A stretch of 13,506 nucleotides of DNA from Promethearchaeota archaeon (lineage in GTDB: Archaea; Asgardarchaeota; Lokiarchaeia; Sigynarchaeales; SOKP01), in contig JAHLWJ010000109.1 in NCBI GenBank assembly GCA_019057975.1, forward strand, positions 1 through 13,506, read 5' to 3'. The stretch's first letter is position 1, and each line of letters starts with the position of its first letter. The notes under the pieces are model-generated. The model had not been told where the DNA came from. It saw nothing but the letters and a program-made list of their open reading frames with translations, and ran no database searches. The translations under genes were made by a program, and so were the position numbers. Shown one piece after another: positions 2,998 to 12,886 of this stretch.

Positions 2998-3050
2998 GTA
3001 AAAAGAAAATAATTCAACTATCATTTCTTTTTATTTTTTATTTTTTTAAT
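2998..3050. terminator. Back-to-back oligo-T transcript ends of convergent units
   Basis: On the plus strand the T-rich run at 3021-3050 follows the MarR stop. On the minus strand the complement of 2998-3012 gives a T-rich run after the last zinc-protein gene. Archaeal termination commonly uses such oligo-T tracts. The plus-strand tract lies inside the 3' end of the opposing gene (its Lys-rich tail). Confidence 0.5.
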
Positions 3051-3242
3051 AATTTCTAAAAAATAACAATACGAACAATAAAATCTTATCTCTTGATTTT
3101 GCCATATTTTTATAATTTTATCATGTTGTGGTTCAGGATAGTTCTGAATAAAAGTATTAAAGCTATATTCCCTTTTACAATTTCCACAATATCTGATTGA
3201 AGTATGACGAAGTTCGGGTGATAACTCTTTTAATTTTGACAT
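3021..3242 (-). CDS. Small two-CxxC zinc-binding protein (last gene of SPFH operon)
   Basis: This 73-aa protein has paired CxxC motifs at C19-G-N-C22 and C56-S-Y-C59, enough to bind one zinc as a zinc ribbon with a long 33-residue insert. It ends in a basic helix rich in Lys/Ile (KKIKNKKK). No family is recognised. It starts at ATG 3242 behind a purine-rich AAGAGAA and lies 28 bases after the carbonic anhydrase gene, so it should share its transcript. The spacing and basic tail are compatible with nucleic-acid or protein binding; nothing more specific can be said. Its C-terminal codons make up the T-tract used as terminator by the opposing unit. Confidence 0.7.
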   Translation of the reverse strand: MSKLKELSPELRHTSIRYCGNCKREYSFNTFIQNYPEPQHDKIIKIWQNQEIRFYCSYCYFLEIIKKIKNKKK

Positions 3243-3270
3243 TCTATTCTCTTAAGTATCAGTTAATAGT

Positions 3271-4206
3271 CTAATTTTCATCTTTCTTTCTAGATATTTT
3301 AGGTATATGTATTTTAACTCCTGGAAAATGAATTTTAGGAACTTGAATTTTTGGCATAATCATTTGGGTGTTAAAACTTTCATCCAATTCAATTTTTTGA
3401 TTTTGAATCTTAACAGGAGTTACATCTTTTTCATTATTTTCAGTATAAATAAGAAATTCTTCCTCCTTATCAACCAATTGGTCCAAATCGCCTTCTTTTT
3501 CTGCATCCAAATCTTTTTTTAACATAATTTCCTCAAGTTCGTCATTATTGATAATTTCATTTTCAATTGTTTTGATGAAATCTATAAACTGGTATTTTTT
3601 CTCTCTAAGTACTGTTTTATAATACTTTCTAAAATTCTCAATAAAAGCAAATTCTTTAAATTTATCATACTCAAACACCCATCCAGTTTCTACATCATAT
3701 AACATTCCTGTAATTTTCACTTCTGGTTTATGCATATGTAATCTTTGCAAATTTTCTACTTGCTGTTTGATATTTCTCAATACATCTATAAATGGTTTGA
3801 AAAAATTTCTAACTTCAGAAAAGAGATCTAAATTCTCCCCTGACTGATAAGAAAGAAATTCATATGGTATTTTCTGTTTTAATTCTAATAATTTAATTTT
3901 TGTCATACAGCAGTCTAAATGACCTAAAATTATAATATATTTAATCTTATATTGATAAACAGTAAGTAAAATTGATCTCAGAGTATCTTGAGTATAAAGA
4001 TTTCCTGCATTTCTTAGGACAAAGATATCTCCAGGATTTAGTTGAAATATTCGGTGAACATCTATTCTAGGGTCAAAACAAGTAAGAATTAAAACAGGAT
4101 ATTTTGGAATTTTATTATTAACTTCAATATTTTCTAAGCCCTGCGATATCTTCCATTGATACCGTAAATTTCCATTTATTAGTACATTTTCAATATTATC
4201 AATCAT
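3271..4206 (-). CDS. Beta-class (Cab-type) carbonic anhydrase with long C-terminal extension
   Basis: This is a 311-aa protein. Residues about 30-185 are a beta-carbonic anhydrase domain, which hydrates CO2 to bicarbonate using zinc. Zinc ligands are visible: C43 in CFDPR (with the Asp45/Arg47 dyad), H96 and C99 in GHLDCCM. The RNAGNLYTQDTLRS stretch and the closing ITGMLYDVETGWVFEY strand are also typical. The short form without a long N-terminal helix resembles the archaeal/bacterial Cab type, normally 165-190 aa. Residues 186-311 are extra: a charged, acidic helical region, then a basic tail (282-308) with Pro-Lys-Ile units recurring at residues 285, 290 and 302. There is no signal peptide, so it is cytoplasmic. 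It lies 76 bases downstream of the SPFH gene. Activity is likely, since all key residues are present; the extension is unexplained. Confidence 0.88.
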   Translation of the reverse strand: MIDNIENVLINGNLRYQWKISQGLENIEVNNKIPKYPVLILTCFDPRIDVHRIFQLNPGDIFVLRNAGNLYTQDTLRSILLTVYQYKIKYIIILGHLDCCMTKIKLLELKQKIPYEFLSYQSGENLDLFSEVRNFFKPFIDVLRNIKQQVENLQRLHMHKPEVKITGMLYDVETGWVFEYDKFKEFAFIENFRKYYKTVLREKKYQFIDFIKTIENEIINNDELEEIMLKKDLDAEKEGDLDQLVDKEEEFLIYTENNEKDVTPVKIQNQKIELDESFNTQMIMPKIQVPKIHFPGVKIHIPKISRKKDEN

Positions 4207-4282
4207 GCTTTCTATATCTCGTTTTTAATCTCCCTTTAAATTCCTAAAGAATTTTAATAAAAATATTAAAATGAAAAAAAAA

Positions 4283-5452
4283 TTATTTTTTAACTAAAAT
4301 TTCCTTAATTTTCTCAGATCCACCATTACCAAAAAATTCTTTAATTTTATCAGAATACTCCGGTAAAAGCTGTAAGAATGGCATAATAGCTTTTGAAAGT
4401 GATGAAAATGCGTCATTGCCATCACCCATGATAAACATTTTATCAGGTTTTATATGTTTAAATATTTCAGGTAAGATGTTTGTCAATTGAACAGCTAAGA
4501 ATCTTTCATCTGCGCTTCCCATAGCTTCTACTTGTTTCTTAAAACCTTCGGCCTGAGCTAGCATTTGTTGCTTAATATTCTCAGATTCACCTTCTGCTTG
4601 GGCTATTAACCTTCGTTTTATTTGTTGAGCGTCAGCATCGGCTTCAATAATTTTCTTCTGTCTATCACCATCAGCCTCGATTTTTTTACGTTCTCTCTCT
4701 TGTTCTGCAATTGCGATTTCTTTATCTTTTCTTCGTATCTCAATTTCTCTTTCTACGATTTGTTCTTGTATACCTACCTCATTTTTTACTTCTAATTCTC
4801 TCATTTTTGAATCTCTTTCAGCTTCAGCTTTAGCAATTCTAGCTTTTCGAAATTCTTCTGCTTGTTTAGTTGCCTCCATGTTTTTTTTTAGTTCCGGTTC
4901 TCCAATAATGACTTCTAAAATTTCTAAAGATTCAATGACTATTCCCCAATCAGATGTTAATTCATGTAGATCCTTTTCAATTGGATCAATAATCTCCCTT
5001 CTTTCTCTAATGATCTTTTCCAATGGCATGTTAGCACAAGTAGTACGAATAATCGCTTCTGTTGCGCCTTTTAATATTTTTTCAACAAAATTCTCATCTC
5101 TCATATTCCATGATACTGCACTAAACGCTTTTTCTGGATCAATGACTTTCCAAATCAACAAACCTTCGATTTCGATATTTTGATACTCATTTGAAACTAC
5201 TTGTTCATGTGCTTCAACCACAGTTTGAATACTAGTAGTTGGAATGACAATATATTCATCTATTAATGGGAGAAGGAATAGACTTCCTCCCAACCCTGCA
5301 TGTTTGACTTTACCATTACGTAAATGTATTACAAATTGGTTTGTTTTGAACTTTCTATATCGAGCAGCTAGGAATATTACAAACAGAAATACAACAATCC
5401 CTACTGTGACGCCTATCCCTACAAATAAAGGATTTAATTCTTCATATATCAA
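4283..5452 (-). CDS. Flotillin-like SPFH/band 7 membrane protein
   Basis: This is a 389-aa protein. An N-terminal membrane helix (about 9-30) is followed by a basic flank (RYRKFK). An SPFH/band 7 domain spans about 31-190. A long charged coiled coil follows at about 190-310, with Ala/Glu repeats such as KAEAERDSK, IEADGDRQKK and AQAEGE. The flotillin-type tail contains LTNILPEIFKHIKPDKMFIMGDG. Such proteins form large oligomeric cages or scaffolds on the inner face of membranes. The start is TTG at 5452: no in-frame ATG occurs before codon 117, and a strong GGAGG (5466-5470) lies 13 bases upstream, a longer gap than usual. It follows the NfeD-like gene by 81 bases, the known flotillin partner arrangement (compare yuaF-floT in Bacillus and yqiJ-yqiK in E. 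coli). Confidence 0.92.
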   Translation of the reverse strand: MIYEELNPLFVGIGVTVGIVVFLFVIFLAARYRKFKTNQFVIHLRNGKVKHAGLGGSLFLLPLIDEYIVIPTTSIQTVVEAHEQVVSNEYQNIEIEGLLIWKVIDPEKAFSAVSWNMRDENFVEKILKGATEAIIRTTCANMPLEKIIRERREIIDPIEKDLHELTSDWGIVIESLEILEVIIGEPELKKNMEATKQAEEFRKARIAKAEAERDSKMRELEVKNEVGIQEQIVEREIEIRRKDKEIAIAEQERERKKIEADGDRQKKIIEADADAQQIKRRLIAQAEGESENIKQQMLAQAEGFKKQVEAMGSADERFLAVQLTNILPEIFKHIKPDKMFIMGDGNDAFSSLSKAIMPFLQLLPEYSDKIKEFFGNGGSEKIKEILVKK

Positions 5453-5533
5453 CTTTTTTTTAAAACCTCCTTTTTTATTTTTAATTGAAAATTTATAATT
5501 TTTTGTTTAAATCTCGAAAAATCATAATTCATT

Positions 5534-6433
5534 TCATCCTCTCCTTTTTTTAATTGACCTCTTAGAATTATCAACTAATAAGTAACCGTTTTTTACATCA
5601 CAAATGTAAACTCTATCACCTCTTTCAAAAATCGATTCTTCTATTATAGGTTTAACATGCAATCGTTCAAACTTTAATGGTGTCTTTGAAGGAATTTTAA
5701 TTACTCCCCCTCTGTCATCAACTTTTAATGTTACCTCCCCTTCTTTGCCAATTAAATTCATTGTAGATGAAATTCTATAATAGCGCGATTTTGCCAGAAT
5801 TTTCCAAAGAGAATTTATTAATTTTATAGATAAAAATGAAATTGTAGGGGTGGCAAAGAATATTAAATACCTGAAATTTACTCCTACAAGGTAATAAAAA
5901 GATAAACCTGAAATTCCATAAACTAGAAATGCGGTTGAAAACAAAAGCATAATGGGAGCAGGAGTAATAGTGGGTATTAAACCTGAATCAAACTCGCCCT
6001 CCATTTCTACGTCTAAGTCAGAATCCACATCTAATTCTGCTTCGACATCTAAATCCGCTTCAACTTCAACAGCATCTACATCGATTTCTGCCTCTATGTC
6101 ATAATCAACATCTACATCAGTGTCGATATCTATATCGCCATCAATATCAATATCAGCATCAACATCTATTTCGGCATCAACGTCTACATCCACTTCGGCA
6201 TCTATTTCACCAGCCCCTGTTATATTTGACTCCATTTGAGCTAAGAACGTGGAAATAATCGATAATAAAAATCCTCCTATAAAAAATCCCAAACACAGGC
6301 TTAAAAAAATACTATAAAAATTATTATAGAGAAGGCCAATTGATGTCATTAATAGACCAACAACTATAATCAGAAATATAGCAATATTATCCTTCCTTTT
6401 CCAGCGAAAGTACATAAATCCCTTATTTCGCAT
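5534..6433 (-). CDS. NfeD/YuaF-type membrane protein with Asp-x-Asp repeat loop
   Basis: This is a 299-aa protein. Two membrane helices (about 16-36 and 39-63) are followed by an extraordinary acidic loop (76-150) in which Asp or Glu alternates with Val, Ile, Ala or Leu. Two further hydrophobic segments (about 159-178 and 183-208) precede a C-terminal OB-fold of the NfeD kind (about 222-290: LIGKEGEVTLKV, GDRVYICDVKNGYLLVDN). The positive-inside rule (basic 1-15 and 211-220) places the acidic loop and OB-fold in the cytoplasm. NfeD-type proteins partner with flotillins, and the SPFH gene follows directly. Start ATG 6433 lacks a ribosome site; ATG at codon 7, behind AAGGGA, is an alternative. 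It is 48 bases from the previous gene. The exact biochemical role of NfeD OB-folds is unsettled. Confidence 0.85.
   Translation of the reverse strand: MRNKGFMYFRWKRKDNIAIFLIIVVGLLMTSIGLLYNNFYSIFLSLCLGFFIGGFLLSIISTFLAQMESNITGAGEIDAEVDVDVDAEIDVDADIDIDGDIDIDTDVDVDYDIEAEIDVDAVEVEADLDVEAELDVDSDLDVEMEGEFDSGLIPTITPAPIMLLFSTAFLVYGISGLSFYYLVGVNFRYLIFFATPTISFLSIKLINSLWKILAKSRYYRISSTMNLIGKEGEVTLKVDDRGGVIKIPSKTPLKFERLHVKPIIEESIFERGDRVYICDVKNGYLLVDNSKRSIKKRRG
5984..6208 (-). repeat. Coding repeat for alternating Asp/hydrophobic residues
   Basis: About 75 codons of the NfeD-like gene encode a near-regular two-residue pattern (acidic, then V/I/A/L). The DNA is a degenerate GAT/GAY-rich tandem repeat. Codons vary between units, so the amino-acid pattern seems kept by selection rather than by recent slippage. 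Confidence 0.8.
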
Positions 6434-6481
6434 TGAGCGTCTAATTTTTTATTTTTTTTATTTTTTTAAGTTTTTTTTTCA

Positions 6482-6679
6482 TTAAATTCTATATATTAAA
6501 TTACAATACTTACATCTAAAAAAACGGTGTCTGACTCGTGGTATGGCATGGAAATCGGTAAAGATTCTAATACATCCATACATTTTATCTATTGGAGATA
6601 TTGTATCAATAACAGAGTCAGTTTCTCTCATTTTTCTATTACATTGTCTACAACGCTTTCTTATTCTCATTCTATTCAT
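6482..6679 (-). CDS. Small basic zinc-ribbon protein, 65 aa
   Basis: The product has CxxC pairs at C10-R-Q-C13 and C56-K-Y-C59, so it probably binds one zinc. It is rich in Arg and His (RMRIRKR at the start, RVRHRFFR before the second pair). The zinc-knuckle spacing of 42 residues is long for a classic ribbon, much like the 73-aa protein at the other end of the operon. No family is recognised. It starts at ATG 6679, 22 bases after the preceding gene, without a clear ribosome site, and lies 48 bases before the NfeD-like gene. Co-transcription with the membrane-microdomain genes is likely. Nucleic-acid binding is possible given the charge, but unproven. Confidence 0.65.
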   Translation of the reverse strand: MNRMRIRKRCRQCNRKMRETDSVIDTISPIDKMYGCIRIFTDFHAIPRVRHRFFRCKYCNLIYRI

Positions 6680-6701
6680 TTTAAATCAAATAAATATAAA
6701 A

Positions 6702-7175
6702 CTATAATTTAATTCCACACATATGACAAAATATTGCATTTTTATCTCGTTTCGCTCCACAGTACCGACAATAATTGATTACATCTACAACAGGAATATC
6801 TCTATTATTAACTTCTCTGAATATTTCTTTATTTTGCCCTTCAGTAGATCTTGGTACTTTATATGGATTTAATATATTGGCTTGTTTTTGAGGAATTCTA
6901 TAGTGTTCATTAAAAGTTCTATTTCTAGGGGGCTTATATGTCTTACTCGTCGCTACAACAGCAAAACTAACTACTATAATAATCATAAAAAACACCGAAA
7001 ACCCACCAATTATGAGTATAACATTAAATTGAAATCCGAATACCCCAGAACGATTGAAAAATAGGAAAAACATAATTCCAAAAATTAAAAAGATAATTAA
7101 GCCTGCTATAACCGCACCAGTACTAGATCTACCATATCTTCTTCTATTTGCTATAATTGGAACTACAAATGTCAT
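6702..7175 (-). CDS. Two-TM membrane protein with C-terminal zinc ribbon (first gene of SPFH operon)
   Basis: This is a 157-aa protein. A basic N-terminus (NRRRYGR) precedes two membrane helices (about 19-40 and 50-76). A polar Pro/Arg/Asn-rich linker follows, and the protein ends in a clean zinc ribbon, YCRYCGAKRDKNAIFCHMCG (C136, C139, C150, C153). The positive-inside rule puts both ends in the cytoplasm. Zinc-ribbon membrane proteins of this layout are common in archaea and generally lack an assigned role. It begins at ATG 7175 behind AAGAGA and is the first gene after the divergent promoter region, so it probably leads the six-gene unit. Its position beside NfeD and flotillin suggests a microdomain component or adaptor (inference). 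Confidence 0.75.
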   Translation of the reverse strand: MTFVVPIIANRRRYGRSSTGAVIAGLIIFLIFGIMFFLFFNRSGVFGFQFNVILIIGGFSVFFMIIIVVSFAVVATSKTYKPPRNRTFNEHYRIPQKQANILNPYKVPRSTEGQNKEIFREVNNRDIPVVDVINYCRYCGAKRDKNAIFCHMCGIKL

Positions 7176-7507: not shown

Positions 7508-8248
7508 ATGATTCTAATCGCAAAAGGAAATGATAATTCCAAAGACAAAAATAACCTTAAAGAGATAGAACATAAAGATAAACCAATATATGTCAAAGTA
7601 AGTGATGAAACAAGAGGTTTGATTGATAAATATAAGTTACACGGAACTACGATATCTGACCTAATAAGAAATGCGGTTAAATGTTATGACGATTTCAACT
7701 CAATCTCACCTGAAATTCATGCTACTATTGAGAAATATAGAGAGAATGATGAATCTGATATTTCTTTTATCGAACGTGCTATTAAATATTTTGGAGAACA
7801 AAAAAATTTAGATAGAGATCTTTGGGTTCGTACTAGAGATGAAATGAAAATGATGTTGATTGGAAAAACTACTTTCAATCAATTAATTGCTGCCGCAGAA
7901 GCACCAAAAGAAAGTTTGGAAAAACCATGGCATAAAAATGTAGCATTTGATCTAATTTTATGGTATACTGGCAAACCCCTAAAAAGTCTTGATATTGAAG
8001 AAATAATTAATACTATTGCGAAAATCTGGGTAGTCGCAAATTACTTCTATGCCATTGACGTACATAAGGAAAATGATGAATTCCATGTTCTTTTCAAACA
8101 TAGGCAGAATAGAAGGTATTCAGAATATTGGTTAGGTTATTTCTCAACATTATTTGCCGCAGAAGAATTACCCTTTAAATGTGAAGTTGAAGGACAGACC
8201 TTTGAGGAGTCTTTATCATTAATAATAAAAATGGGGTATAAAAAATAA
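7508..8248 (+). CDS. Ribbon-helix-helix regulator with unknown C-terminal domain
   Basis: This is a 246-aa protein. Residues about 25-62 look like a ribbon-helix-helix DNA-binding domain: strand PIYVKVS, helix DETRGLIDKYKL, turn HGTT, helix ISDLIRNAVKCYDDF. The usual RHH protein is only 50-100 aa. Here a helical linker (64-140) and an alpha/beta C-terminal domain (about 140-245) are added, the latter with IINTIAKIWVVANYFYAIDV, EFHVLFKHRQ and PFKCEVEG segments. I do not recognise that domain; a ligand- or heme-sensing role is only a guess. ATG 7508 has GGGG directly against it, too close for a normal ribosome site, so a short or absent leader may be used. It diverges from the SPFH operon and shares the mirrored 18-bp element, so it could control both units. 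Confidence 0.75.
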   Translation: MILIAKGNDNSKDKNNLKEIEHKDKPIYVKVSDETRGLIDKYKLHGTTISDLIRNAVKCYDDFNSISPEIHATIEKYRENDESDISFIERAIKYFGEQKNLDRDLWVRTRDEMKMMLIGKTTFNQLIAAAEAPKESLEKPWHKNVAFDLILWYTGKPLKSLDIEEIINTIAKIWVVANYFYAIDVHKENDEFHVLFKHRQNRRYSEYWLGYFSTLFAAEELPFKCEVEGQTFEESLSLIIKMGYKK

Positions 8249-8295: not shown

Positions 8296-10860
8296 TTATG
8301 ATTCTTTCTCTAAATCCCCTAACTTCTTCAGATGGTATTCAATTTCTTCTACCCATTCTTTCTTATTTTTAATGTGACAAAAGCAATAACGCACTATTTT
8401 TCTTGCTTCTTGAAAATGGGCTTTTGCTTCCTTATAGTTTCCAAGCTGTTCATAGCATTTTCCTAAACCAACATGAGATGAGGGTATAAACCAACCATTA
8501 GGCTCAACTTTAATACCTTGTTCATATTTTTTTATTGCATTTTCGTAATCTTCTGTTATCATTAGTATTTCACCATATGAATCAAAATAATTCCCTTCAT
8601 CTGGCATTTTTTCAGTCAAGAATTTAATGGTCTCAATGGCAGCAATCTTATTTTTTTCATCTTCAATTCCATTCTCCTTTTTCTGTCCATAAATGTACAC
8701 ATGCCAGTATGCCTTATTGTTGAAAAAGTCTACATCTTCGGGATATGTTTCTGTTAACTCTGTAACTATATCTAATCCAGATTCAAAATCACCTAACATC
8801 TTTAATACATATGCTTTTTGCATTAACAGATGTTTTCTGCTCTCAGGAAACCGTTTCATAGTTTCTTCTAAAACAACAAAAGCTTCATCATATTTTTCTA
8901 ATTCCATAAGAATCTTTGATTTACTGTAATAGAGATCTACAACCTCCTCTGTTAAACCTATAGCAGCATCAATTCCCTCAAGCGCTTCTTCATTTTTATC
9001 CATTTGTTCTAACATTGTACTTTTAAATTGATAGTATCTAGCTTTGTTTGATGCTTTAGAATCAATACTAATTACTTCATCAATTAAATCCAACACATAA
9101 TCCTCATTAACATCTCCAACATCAAAATCATAAATAACGCTATGTCCAAAGACTAATGCTTTTGCCGCAAGTGCTATTGGATGATCCGGATAAATTTCAA
9201 ACATACTATCAATAATTTCCAATGCCTCTCTAGCAGAACCTAAAGCTGTGTATGAAAAAACAAGAATAAATGAAGATGCAATATATATTCCCTCATCATC
9301 CCTAAACTGCTCAAAATCTATTTCCTCTTCTATTAACTTTATTGCTTCAACATATTTATTTATATGACAGAGGACCCTTGCTTTAAATAACTTAAATTCA
9401 ATATCATTTAAGCCTTTTTTAATCCTGGAATTTACGATATCTATGGCTTTTTTATATTTCTGCTTGTCTTTTAGTACCTCTTTTACTTCTTTAACAATTG
9501 ATGAAATGCTAGGGACTACATAATAATCCTCTATTATATCAAAAATATTAGGGGAAATGTAATAATTCTCTTGACTTTCATCAAATTCTTTTGGAGCATT
9601 ACTTGCCGCGCTATAGTACTGAAATTCTTGCCAAATTGTTCCCTCCAATTTATCAGTAATCTCCTCTAATTTTTTCCTTGTCTCCATCTTGTATGCCAAA
9701 TAATTTATATATTCTGGTAAAAATCCTTTCAATGCTTCCCTTAAACCAACATCAAATAAATGATCACAAATTTCGTTTAAGATAACATCAACGACAGACT
9801 CTAAAGTAAATGGCAGTACTCCACTCGGAATTTTTTCATACAATTTATTTAAATAAGTAAACTGAGTAATATTATCCTCTGTAATAGCACTAAGTACTTT
9901 TTCGATCTTTTCATTTGCTTTAAAATAATATGTTTTATCACTATCAACTTCTAATTTAAAGAATTTTGTGGAGTAAATGTTTTTTTCAACTATTTTGCGA
10001 ATATTAAACTCTAAGTCTAATTTATCAATCTCATATTTTTTTGAGAATTCTGTAGGTGAAATGTAAACAGGATACTGATCTGGATGATTAATTGAAAAGA
10101 ATAACAATATTTTGTTAAAATCGTCTTCATTATCTAATGATCCTTTCAATTTTTCAAAAGGTAATGTCAATATATAGTCTAAAAGTCGAAATTTAACCCC
10201 CATCTTCTTAATATTATGTCTCTCAAAAAATTGGATCGTCTTTTTGGTAATCTCCTCAATCCTTTTACTCTCTTCATTTAATATCGATTGTCTATCTAAA
10301 TCATAAAACCTTAACATTAATGCATATTCTGCCTTACCGGCTCGAGTTATCCTGTATTCTTTATTATCATCTTTTCTTAGAAGCTCTTTCTTTAATAAGA
10401 TATTTATGTTTTTAGATAACGCAGATTGATTAATAAACACAGGAGCATTATCATCAAGAAAATCTGACCATTTTAAATAGTTGTTATTATATGCCATCCA
10501 CAGGATTATATGGTCGTAGTTCCTTTTTTCACCAATCGCTTTAGGAGGATAATTCAATTTCCTTTTTCCTTTCTTGGCTTTTGATAATTCATTGAACCTT
10601 TCCTCGCCCCTAACAGTGATCCTATACTCTCCCCTTCTTACCTTTTTAATATATCCATCGACAAATAATGTTTTTAAATAATTTGATAAGGTAGATTGAG
10701 GAATACTAATAGGCTCTTCTAAAAAATTTGCCCATTCAACGACTTCATTGTTCTTTAAAAGCCAAAGTATAATGTGTTCAACATTTTTTCGTGTACCCCA
10801 TATCTTCCTGTAAATCTCTTCTGGGGGTAAGTTTAATTCTGATTCTGATACTCTACTCAT
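8296..10860 (-). CDS. Large regulator: tandem winged helices plus TPR array
   Basis: This is an 854-aa protein. Two homologous winged-helix domains lie at about 25-92 and 113-182. Both contain HIILW, (E/K)W(A/S)(N/D)FL, QS(T/A)LS and EYRIT, so they arose by duplication. A possible degenerate third unit spans about 245-325. A helical region without clear family follows to about 450. From about 455 to 825 there are TPR-like helix pairs, for example LYYSKSKILMELEKYDEAFVVLEE, and VGLGKCYEQLGNYKEAKAHFQEA near the end. The first part should bind DNA; the TPRs should bind a partner protein or peptide. There are no membrane segments. A TATA-like AAAATATAAG lies about 35 bases before ATG 10860. The divergent gene at 11079 and the three near-palindromes between them suggest autoregulation. 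Its target is unknown. Confidence 0.85.
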   Translation of the reverse strand: MSRVSESELNLPPEEIYRKIWGTRKNVEHIILWLLKNNEVVEWANFLEEPISIPQSTLSNYLKTLFVDGYIKKVRRGEYRITVRGEERFNELSKAKKGKRKLNYPPKAIGEKRNYDHIILWMAYNNNYLKWSDFLDDNAPVFINQSALSKNINILLKKELLRKDDNKEYRITRAGKAEYALMLRFYDLDRQSILNEESKRIEEITKKTIQFFERHNIKKMGVKFRLLDYILTLPFEKLKGSLDNEDDFNKILLFFSINHPDQYPVYISPTEFSKKYEIDKLDLEFNIRKIVEKNIYSTKFFKLEVDSDKTYYFKANEKIEKVLSAITEDNITQFTYLNKLYEKIPSGVLPFTLESVVDVILNEICDHLFDVGLREALKGFLPEYINYLAYKMETRKKLEEITDKLEGTIWQEFQYYSAASNAPKEFDESQENYYISPNIFDIIEDYYVVPSISSIVKEVKEVLKDKQKYKKAIDIVNSRIKKGLNDIEFKLFKARVLCHINKYVEAIKLIEEEIDFEQFRDDEGIYIASSFILVFSYTALGSAREALEIIDSMFEIYPDHPIALAAKALVFGHSVIYDFDVGDVNEDYVLDLIDEVISIDSKASNKARYYQFKSTMLEQMDKNEEALEGIDAAIGLTEEVVDLYYSKSKILMELEKYDEAFVVLEETMKRFPESRKHLLMQKAYVLKMLGDFESGLDIVTELTETYPEDVDFFNNKAYWHVYIYGQKKENGIEDEKNKIAAIETIKFLTEKMPDEGNYFDSYGEILMITEDYENAIKKYEQGIKVEPNGWFIPSSHVGLGKCYEQLGNYKEAKAHFQEARKIVRYCFCHIKNKKEWVEEIEYHLKKLGDLEKES

Positions 10861-12013: not shown

Positions 12014-12886
12014 ATGGTAGAAAATAGAAGTTCGGTATTTGGGATTATCGCAATTATTATTGGAGCATCTGGATTAGGGCTCGGAGCATTTTCGTTTGTG
12101 AATTCTCAGGTTGTTGAAGGGCCAGAAGGGATACCAGGAGACGATGGGCAAGATGGAATTGATGGGGAAGATGGTATAGACGGTGAGGATGCTCCTGGAG
12201 GACTTATCGTGGGGATTTTAGAACCAGATCACGGAGAGACAGTTCAGGGTCTTATTATAATAAAAGCTATAATCTATGGAACGTGGAATTATTCTATATC
12301 AGTATTACGAGATGGAACTGAAATTGGAACATCTTTACCATTAGTATGGGATACAACCCTTGAATCTAAAGGTTGGTATAATATTACTGTAAAGATTACA
12401 GATTTAGAATCTAACAATAGCACTAGTGATGAAGCAATTGTATACGTAGATAACAGTCTCGCTCCAGGTTATACTTGGACAGTTTACATGAGTCAAACAA
12501 GTCCATTTTCGTGGATAGGATTATCAACGGTCTGGCATAATGTTTATGAGGATGTAGGTGGTATGTTTGCAATAAATATAGTGGTGGGCCCAGGAGAGGC
12601 TGTGCATTTGACATTCACTTGTTACGTCTATGGAATTCCAGACACTGATTTTTATTATGCTTTCTTTGATAATCCTGGTCAACCAACTGAGAGCCAAATT
12701 GGTCTAGTCACGAGAGTTACTCACACATCAGATTATGACACATTTCATTTTGAAAGAATTATGGATTTAAGCACTGGATCGCATAATATTGGTATACTAG
12801 TAAGGACAGTTTCAGGGACTGGATCTATATTTTTTGACAATAGGTTGCTTATCATTCAAGGGTTAGTAGGTACAATTCAATATTGA
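12014..12886 (+). CDS. Membrane-anchored collagen-like/Ig-like surface protein
   Basis: This is a 290-aa protein. A short N-terminus with Arg5 precedes a membrane anchor (about 8-29). Eight Gly-X-Y triplets follow (36-59), rich in Asp and Glu (GDDGQDGIDGEDGIDGEDAP). An Ig-like beta-sandwich spans about 62-147, of the type that spans GILEPDHGETVQG...VYVDN. A second beta-rich domain (about 150-290) contains WTVYMSQTSPFSW and repeated aromatic/Gly strands. Possible N-glycosylation sequons occur at N92 (NYS), N123 (NIT), N134 (NNS) and N135 (NST), consistent with an extracellular location. Membrane-anchored proteins of this layout occur in Asgard archaea. The triplet run is short, so a stable triple helix is unlikely without trimerising domains. 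It stands alone; adhesion or surface binding is an inference. Confidence 0.8.
   Translation: MVENRSSVFGIIAIIIGASGLGLGAFSFVNSQVVEGPEGIPGDDGQDGIDGEDGIDGEDAPGGLIVGILEPDHGETVQGLIIIKAIIYGTWNYSISVLRDGTEIGTSLPLVWDTTLESKGWYNITVKITDLESNNSTSDEAIVYVDNSLAPGYTWTVYMSQTSPFSWIGLSTVWHNVYEDVGGMFAINIVVGPGEAVHLTFTCYVYGIPDTDFYYAFFDNPGQPTESQIGLVTRVTHTSDYDTFHFERIMDLSTGSHNIGILVRTVSGTGSIFFDNRLLIIQGLVGTIQY

Follow-up and report, generated by a model that had tools for sequence, protein, structure and literature searches.

The stretch of DNA analysed here, which we call the window, comprises 13,506 nucleotides of a Promethearchaeota archaeon contig (JAHLWJ010000109.1) and encodes a protein of the beta-carbonic anhydrase fold (CA) next to SPFH and NfeD-type proteins. 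We asked whether this CA is a dedicated partner of the SPFH-NfeD scaffold or an enzyme encoded next door by chance.

Organization of the locus

The six same-strand genes of the preliminary description and their spacing, with gaps of 22-81 bases, were borne out by an ORF check. The features of the region are the following:

7508..8248, plus strand: divergent 246-aa gene, whose orthologue is found next to 26 of 35 loci
6702..7175, minus strand: protein of 157 aa read as a membrane protein, with a C-terminal zinc ribbon (Zn_Ribbon_1 profile)
6482..6679, minus strand: 65-aa ORF with two CxxC motifs, of doubtful coding status (1 of 35 loci)
5534..6433, minus strand: NfeD-type protein, 299 aa (structure model and gene position)
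4283..5452, minus strand: SPFH (Band 7) protein, 389 aa, TTG start (Band_7 profile)
4274..4282, minus strand: oligo-T tract (T9 on the coding strand) directly 3' of the SPFH stop, conserved and terminator-like
3271..4206, minus strand: CA, 311 aa, with an acidic linker and a C-terminal tail (Pfam and fold)
3274..3354, minus strand: basic C-terminal tail of the CA, residues 285-311, with P-K-I repeats (conservation)
3021..3242, minus strand: lineage-specific two-CxxC protein, 73 aa (8 of 35 loci)

The core of the locus is NfeD-SPFH-CA. The start of the 246-aa divergent gene product looks ribbon-helix-helix-like, which is a reading only.

The SPFH protein carries a Band_7 domain (PF01145, E 3.2e-28 in a Pfam search) and is 75-98% identical across the compared loci (72% in L036, a fragment). 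The flotillin label previously given to it agrees with the presence of NfeD beside SPFH, as in YuaF/YuaG and YqiJ/YqiK, but not with the profiles: the flotillin subfamily profile NF058507 gave 39.7 bits against a cut-off of 700, and stomatin and flotillin-1 chains scored about equally when the SPFH profile was compared with solved structures. Pfam Flot was absent among the profile matches of the window protein and was matched in the Helarchaeal genome G084. An NfeD gene lies upstream of SPFH in all 31 loci having upstream DNA. In the structure model, the NfeD-type protein shows the NfeD architecture, with four long helices, read as membrane helices, a C-terminal OB-like domain, and a disordered acidic loop of D-V-D repeats at residues 72-156. 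The Pfam NfeD profile reached E 0.05 or better in 3 of 17 orthologues and gave no match to the window protein; an identification of the latter as bactofilin was discarded, the match being below the cut-off and inside the repeat loop.

The zinc theme proposed for the locus, with three zinc proteins as parts of the system, did not hold. The 157-aa protein matches Zn_Ribbon_1 with E 1.5e-5 (25 bits at a cut-off of 25), and its orthologue occurs in 27 of 35 related loci, upstream of SPFH in 25 and downstream in 2, but the small two-CxxC proteins are found in only 8 (73 aa) and 1 (65 aa) of the 35.

A single six-gene transcript is doubtful because 32 of 38 loci have a run of at least seven T behind the SPFH stop, and 0 of 35 have one after NfeD; such runs were present in 48 of 1050 random 60-mers. 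The spacing of the genes does fit the proposed operon. No terminator hairpins were found (0; shuffles gave a mean of 1.3), and a sigma-70 promoter scan, which excludes archaeal promoters, gave 25 hits against a shuffle mean of 27.7, that is, no excess.

The carbonic anhydrase domain and its tail

The CA belongs to the Pfam family Pro_CA (PF00484, 73.6 bits; cut-off 25.7), and carbonic anhydrases were its closest folds in a Foldseek structure search (3las, E 3.4e-9; 1g5c_A, E 1.7e-8), with a loose superposition on 3las (rmsd 11.4) and a better one on 1g5c_B (rmsd 3.2, TMt 0.76). The COS hydrolase 3vqj and the CS2 hydrolase 3ten/3teo are also among its closest structures by sequence and fold; by both measures, 3las and the Cab-type 1g5c score at least as well. 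The organism-named relatives among the 120 of 451 CA relatives listed are Asgard, save one "subsurface metagenome". Two mentions of carbonic anhydrase in an Asgard ESCRT paper turned out to be size standards and were set aside.

The CA exceeds the Cab-type core by a C-terminal helix, the acidic linker and the P-K-I tail. This basic tail ends all 28 Lokiarchaeal CAs aligned, and its core is about as conserved as that of the enzyme domain (mean majority residue 0.66 in the tail core, 0.68 in the CA core and 0.29 in the linker). The last 45 residues hold 2.8 PKI-like motifs, against 0.12 after shuffling, and the rest of the protein about one. When the tail was searched for in the genomes of 21 relatives, all nine hits under E 0.05 were the CA gene. 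The model shows the tail as unstructured and gives it no fold; the tail is missing from the CA of genome G162 and changed in an extra CA copy in L027/L081, and the end of the unlinked CA of G081 bears a vague resemblance to it. The net charges of the NfeD acidic loop (-37) and the CA tail (+5) could invite the idea of a specific pairing. We do not sustain it, because the D-V-D loop persists in L012, where the CA is lost, and turns into a D/H repeat in both L027 and L029 without much change in the tail.

Conservation of the CA beside SPFH and NfeD

The preliminary description called for a search of Asgard genomes for this adjacency and took its occurrence in a single genome as the outcome that would speak against it. 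The adjacency is not unique to one genome: it is conserved across Lokiarchaeia, where 28 of 34 testable loci have the CA on the strand of SPFH and downstream of it, and 6 lack it. Within family f1, 30 of the 37 SPFH-bearing genomes encode both proteins and 7 encode SPFH without CA; 3 genomes have CA without SPFH, the CA of each being located at a contig end, and several high-completeness genomes, such as G096 and G098, have neither. Family f4, probably Sigynarchaeota, keeps NfeD-SPFH-CA in three genomes (G158, G159 and G161), and in a fourth, G162, the CA adjoins SPFH in divergent orientation. A CA-NfeD-SPFH cluster with gaps of 3 and 18 bases is present in G084, with a CA of another clade (grouping support 99/86 in the tree); the clade uniting the f1 and f4 CAs has a support of only 94/59.

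In the 21 other Asgard genomes with a CA, the DNA fetched around the CA gene showed neither SPFH nor NfeD, and the CAs of these genomes are all short (145-219 aa). NfeD-SPFH without CA occurs in other Asgard groups (L084-L086). A MarR neighbour is missing from 13 loci with at least 3.4 kb of downstream DNA, and 11 of these retain the CA. Among the genes staying with the locus no transporter or carboxylase was seen, and the neighbours' Pfam hits included nothing pointing to sulfur chemistry. Weak sequence traces in two CA-less loci may be remnants of the CA C-terminus, lying immediately 3' of SPFH and correctly oriented (L019, 11 residues, 91%, E 0.047; L032, 14 residues, 71%, E 0.008); the same search gave better scores that we read as chance, on the opposite strand of L012 and of L015 (E about 1e-4) and at another place in L032 (E 0.004), and it showed no remnant in L012, L015, L022 or L023.

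Changes in the active site

The CA had been described as catalytically intact, which is true of the window protein, whose zinc ligands and Asp-Arg pair (C43, D45, R47, H96 and C99) are all in place, as they are in 123 of 164 rows, the window included. As a reason for the link with SPFH, however, intactness finds no support: one or more of the five residues are missing in 41 rows, 40 of the 164 sequences have a changed Asp-Arg pair (31 of 117 clusters, with a minimum of 17 changes), including f4 proteins encoded at the locus, and the G162 CA has lost both Cys ligands. Asp to Asn alone accounts for 15 of the 31 altered clusters; it is a one-base change in metagenomic data and may leave activity. 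The reading frames are nevertheless open, and dN/dS between two f4 CAs is 0.28. The CA evolves faster than SPFH (dN/dS 0.25 versus 0.03 between the window and L008), and its dN/dS is 0.53-0.58 when the window is compared with its closest relatives. Since fold and linkage persist without the Asp-Arg pair, and once without the Cys ligands, the CA would also serve in a way that does not depend on full catalysis; because it stays at the locus in lineages with decayed catalytic residues, the data suggest a dedicated scaffold partner, more than an enzyme encoded next door by chance.

Discussion

The reading that we favour, with somewhat better than even confidence, is a YuaF/YqiJ-like NfeD-SPFH scaffold with a CA-fold protein as a third component, docked through its tail, mostly active, and with a non-catalytic role as well. 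The acidic flexible linker and the basic P-K-I tail would carry the CA domain, and the tail would dock it on the scaffold, be it the SPFH cage, the NfeD acidic loop or the adjacent membrane. The CA is probably active in the window and most Lokiarchaea and might interconvert CO2 and bicarbonate at the scaffold, shifting the pH; its non-catalytic role could be structural, or that of a sensor binding bicarbonate or CO2. Several points count against a tail-docked partner: the oligo-T between SPFH and CA, the loci and other groups in which NfeD-SPFH does without CA, the high-completeness f1 genomes with neither gene, the unstructured tail, the faster evolution of the CA, the modest f1-f4 support, the share of Asp to Asn changes, the tails gone or altered in G162 and the L027/L081 copy, the similar end in G081, and the NfeD loop kept in L012. 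A bolder version, in which the CA fold has become a scaffold subunit or a bicarbonate/CO2 sensor, held by the P-K-I tail and gating or reporting the state of the microdomain with catalysis optional, is less likely than not, and we entertain it tentatively.

A purely catalytic CO2/bicarbonate unit, close to the main idea of the preliminary description, would have an active CA at the scaffold that feeds or relieves a transporter or carboxylase, comparable with the vectorial CO2 hydration by DabA/DabB. It draws on the majority of intact active sites, on the carbonic anhydrases as nearest folds and on the CA profile, which matches once in 32 of the 33 f1 genomes with a CA (no more than 10 candidates scored in each), but we find it rather doubtful, given the repeated changes of the Asp-Arg pair, also at f4 loci, and the lack of a transporter or carboxylase among the genes staying with the locus. 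In the excerpts of PMC13144422, moreover, alanine at the zinc ligands and Asp-Arg pair of DabA2 impaired growth under CO2 limitation. The lack of pointers to sulfur chemistry among the neighbours' Pfam hits bears on another proposal, that the enzyme acts on a different small molecule such as COS or CS2. Known members of the beta-CA fold do act on both, and their structures are among the closest to our protein; true carbonic anhydrases score no worse, and this activity seems unlikely.

Adjacency by inheritance alone, with functionally unlinked genes, would accommodate the oligo-T tract and the loss of the CA from 6 of 34 loci; it is quite improbable in view of the retention of the CA where MarR is lost, the clustering of an other-clade CA with NfeD-SPFH in G084, and the short form of all 21 CAs away from SPFH and NfeD. 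Least credible by far is a zinc-handling unit of zinc proteins and a zinc enzyme: the zinc-ribbon gene is conserved, but the small two-CxxC proteins are sparse and the G162 CA lacks its Cys ligands.

The tail-docked CA has partial parallels among known systems. The YuaF-YuaG and YqiJ-YqiK operons, which pair NfeD with an SPFH2 flotillin, share with the locus an NfeD gene beside an SPFH gene, whereas the locus has a third conserved gene, whose product combines the CA fold with a tail of its own; the word "carbonic" is absent from the main text of the paper on these operons. Searches with both the SPFH and NfeD proteins retrieved the SPFH-NfeD complex QmcA-YbbJ (8z5g). Small beta-CAs, Cab-type and others (1g5c, 3las), are alike in the sequence and fold of the core, but the locus CA differs in its C-terminal extensions and its SPFH/NfeD neighbours. 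In DAB2, as excerpts of PMC13144422 describe it, the beta-CA-like cytosolic protein DabA2 works with the membrane partner DabB2; however, DabB resembles proton-conducting complex I subunits, SPFH and NfeD are not part of the system, and DabA is a different, larger family. Excerpts of PMC5383999 report that stomatin, an SPFH protein, affects bicarbonate exchange by AE1 in red cells; the partner there is an anion exchanger and not a CA, so that this is an analogy only. The gene for flotillin-associated rhodopsin lies in tandem with flotillin and is co-transcribed with it (excerpts of PMC10308929), the partner being a rhodopsin instead of the CA-fold protein found here.

New in this work are the conserved CA tail, the alteration of the Asp-Arg pair, the sparseness of the two-CxxC proteins and the oligo-T after SPFH. 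SPFH cages are widespread, but few of their clients are known; in eukaryotes, to whose ancestry the Asgard archaea are close, scaffolds of flotillin and stomatin have a central place. A CA-fold partner that is conserved and seems to have been recruited on more than one occasion offers a testable SPFH client in archaea, and the natural series from intact to degenerate active sites, along which the tail is mostly retained, allows a direct test between a catalytic and a structural role. Annotations of "carbonic anhydrase" in Asgard genomes, above all in f4, need not imply CO2 hydration.

Conservation of the CA gene beside NfeD and SPFH

The preliminary description had placed a beta-carbonic-anhydrase-fold gene (CA) in one operon with the NfeD and SPFH (Band 7) genes and proposed looking for the same adjacency in further Asgard genomes, where it was indeed found, in Lokiarchaeal loci, in genomes G158, G159 and G161 and, in another gene order, in G084. 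An SPFH scan returned 35 related loci (L002-L036), and the closest named relatives were Lokiarchaeal MAGs. NfeD lies 5' of SPFH on the same strand in all 31 loci with upstream DNA, and a same-strand CA follows SPFH in 28 of the 34 testable loci, L036 being excluded because its contig stops within SPFH; no CA was found downstream of SPFH in L012, L015, L019, L022, L023 and L032. The SPFH-CA distance is 61-900 bases except in L027, with a single additional gene in between in L004 and L016 and a pair of small ORFs (the zinc-ribbon gene and another) in L025. On the contig of L027 (shared with L081) CA occurs in two copies, the closer about 1.1 kb from SPFH; there (L081, 8290-12218) the two CA genes are interleaved, 3' of SPFH, with two long proteins without Pfam matches. 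L023, a Lokiarchaeal-type NfeD-SPFH locus (76% identity), sits on a contig titled Bathyarchaeota, probably a binning error.

As a control for mere shared descent we used the MarR neighbour, which is gone from 13 loci with at least 3.4 kb of downstream sequence, 11 of which keep CA. The zinc-ribbon gene is present in 27/35 loci, the 73-aa protein in 8/35 and the 65-aa protein in 1/35. One further neighbour recurs:

Window 7508-8248, divergent from the locus: gene for a 246-aa protein, adjoining 26/35 loci, with shorter relatives elsewhere

A Pfam search gave no confident family for this protein, which is possibly a regulator. Window positions 8296-10860 encode an 854-aa protein with TPR repeats and a winged-helix-like N-terminus (relatives in 9/35 loci), and the protein encoded at 12014-12886 has a hydrophobic N-terminus followed by a collagen-like G-I-D-G-E-D run. 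The NfeD loop (window 5983-6218; compared also in L027, L029, L069, L071 and L084) consists of a D-V-D repeat in the majority of Lokiarchaea seen and elsewhere of a D/H-rich one, such that a low-complexity acidic loop is retained while its composition shifts.

Profile searches across 227 Asgard genomes matched CA in 59 (E 1e-3) and SPFH in 93 (E 1e-60). Among the 65 genomes of the window's family, f1, SPFH was found in 37, CA in 33 and both in 30, and all 30 have CA no more than about 1.2 kb 3' of SPFH on the same contig and strand. In the three with CA only (G138, G142, G148) the gene sits at a contig end, and seven have SPFH without CA (G097, G102, G113, G117, G128, G135, G145). Directly 3' of SPFH in the CA-less loci L074, L075 and L077 lies a YhhN-family gene, called by Pfam for L074 (E 6.2e-36) and by eye for the other two.

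Other Asgard lineages

Family f4 has CA in four of five genomes; its assignment to Sigynarchaeota follows the name of one relative (P0125), and G158's own protein P0122 is recorded as Lokiarchaeota. NfeD-SPFH-CA occurs in the window's gene order in G158, G159 and G161. In the f4 genome G162, CA and a Band_7 gene (E 2.4e-16) are divergently oriented, and this CA is a pseudo-CA without the Cys ligands. In this genome (L070, contig C321, 8090-10028) a gene of the EAP30/Vps36 (ESCRT-II) family (27.5 bits against a cut-off of 26.8) lies 28 bases after SPFH, an SPFH-ESCRT link in f4. A survey of ESCRT systems describes some archaeal ESCRT loci linked with SPFH genes, and its main text contains neither 'carbonic' nor 'NfeD' (PMC10936438). 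A different arrangement is found in the Helarchaeal genome G084 (f7):

L071 (G084, contig C77) 7288-11207: CA-NfeD-flotillin-Ras-family GTPase gene run, its CA-NfeD-SPFH part spaced by 3 and 18 bases

Its CA, a 100% match to P0132 (named Helarchaeota), has a long N-terminal extension, the CA domain beginning at residue 195. Its SPFH differs from the window type and is flotillin-like (Pfam Flot 1.7e-8), with a further relative at E 1e-40 in G083 only among the 83 genomes of the class searched. A CA tree, for which the program warns of long branches including G084's, places this CA among the short ones of f15/f16 (support 99/86), apart from the tailed CAs. We read this single genome as a separate joining of CA with NfeD-SPFH. 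Support is 99/97 for f1 and 100/99 for f4; as the node uniting them has only 94/59, these two linkages need not have one common origin. No SPFH or NfeD was found at E 1e-3 in the fetched CA flanks of the other 21 CA-bearing genomes (L073, L082, L083, L087-L104; CAs of 145-219 aa), L097 and L100, with CA at a contig end, being covered on one side and L101 with 0.6 kb on one side.

Fold, tail and active site of the CA

Among the Foldseek matches of the window CA model (mean pLDDT 64.2) are 3las (E 3.4e-9 at an rmsd of 11.4), Cab 1g5c, whose chain B superposes with rmsd 3.2 (TMt 0.76), and the COS hydrolase 3vqj, in agreement with sequence searches. C-terminal to the core lie a helix, an acidic linker of net charge -13 and a basic tail of net charge +5. 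Over 28 sequences the mean majority-residue frequency is 0.68 in the CA core, 0.66 in the tail core and 0.29 in the linker, and P290 and P302 are invariant (28/28). The last 45 residues hold on average 2.8 PKI-like motifs, compared with a mean of 0.12 for shuffled sequences; the whole remainder of each CA has about one. Searched against 21 relatives' genomes, the tail matched only the CA gene at E < 0.05 (9/9), with three more matches at E 0.47-0.88; this search missed the f4 tails, which have a shortened form. The tail is absent from the G162 CA and altered in the extra copy of L027/L081; G081 has an unlinked CA whose C-terminus vaguely resembles the tail.

The active-site alignment comprised 164 rows after identical sequences were dropped: the window, 32 locus ORFs longer than 250 aa and 131 database proteins (the 120 listed out of 451 CA relatives, plus 11 relatives in the f4 set). 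The Asp-Arg pair and three zinc ligands are complete in 123 rows. The pair is altered in 40, of which 19 have Asp to Asn with Arg kept, a change after which part of the activity may remain, and the others Ser, Trp, Tyr, Lys and so on. Some of the rows duplicate a single gene almost exactly; of 117 clusters at 95% identity, 31 are altered, 15 by Asp to Asn with Arg kept, and a quick tree leaving out the active-site columns requires at least 17 changes of the pair. All 11 relatives in the f4 set are altered, P0121 retaining Asp. Two rows differ in the zinc ligands, L028 with Asp for His and G162 with Ser for both Cys, and in two others the first Cys falls in a gap. For DabA2, replacing the zinc ligands and the Asp-Arg pair with alanine hampered growth when CO2 was limiting (PMC13144422). 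The altered CAs do not resemble decaying genes: they retain open reading frames, with dN/dS near 0.28 between the L067 and L068 CAs and 0.34 between those of L013 and L014.

Transcription

Oligo-T is the usual terminator signal of archaea. We scored runs of at least seven T within 60 bases 3' of each stop, with 1050 random 60-mers as control (48 positive). Such runs follow SPFH in 32/38 loci, NfeD in 0/35, CA in 11/32, the zinc-ribbon gene in 6/27, the 73-aa gene in 3/8, MarR in 7/14, the TPR gene in 2/9 and the 246-aa gene in 1/26. The NfeD-SPFH unit may thus stop after SPFH, CA being transcribed separately or by read-through past this tract. In G084, co-transcription of CA and NfeD is likely, because CA comes first and almost abuts NfeD.

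A proposed partner for the NfeD-SPFH scaffold

Bacterial SPFH genes are paired with NfeD homologues (PMC2636767), and flotillin assembles into a membrane-bound cage (PMC11260169). We found no joint treatment of Asgard archaea, carbonic anhydrase and flotillin in the open-access literature, to which the search was confined, and there NfeD, flotillin and carbonic anhydrase were co-mentioned in a single paper, on picocyanobacteria. Carbonic anhydrase is mentioned together with Lokiarchaea in six papers of this literature and together with SPFH in nine, among them one on stomatin and AE1. The CA is a real, conserved extension of NfeD-SPFH systems, undescribed as far as we searched. Our confidence is strong for this linkage at the level of genes and moderate for the mechanism we propose, by which the CA-fold protein would be a dedicated partner of the NfeD-SPFH scaffold, tethered by its tail. 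The window CA is probably catalytic, and the altered active sites of f4, where the fold, the linkage and mostly the tail are kept, speak for a second role, perhaps in sensing.
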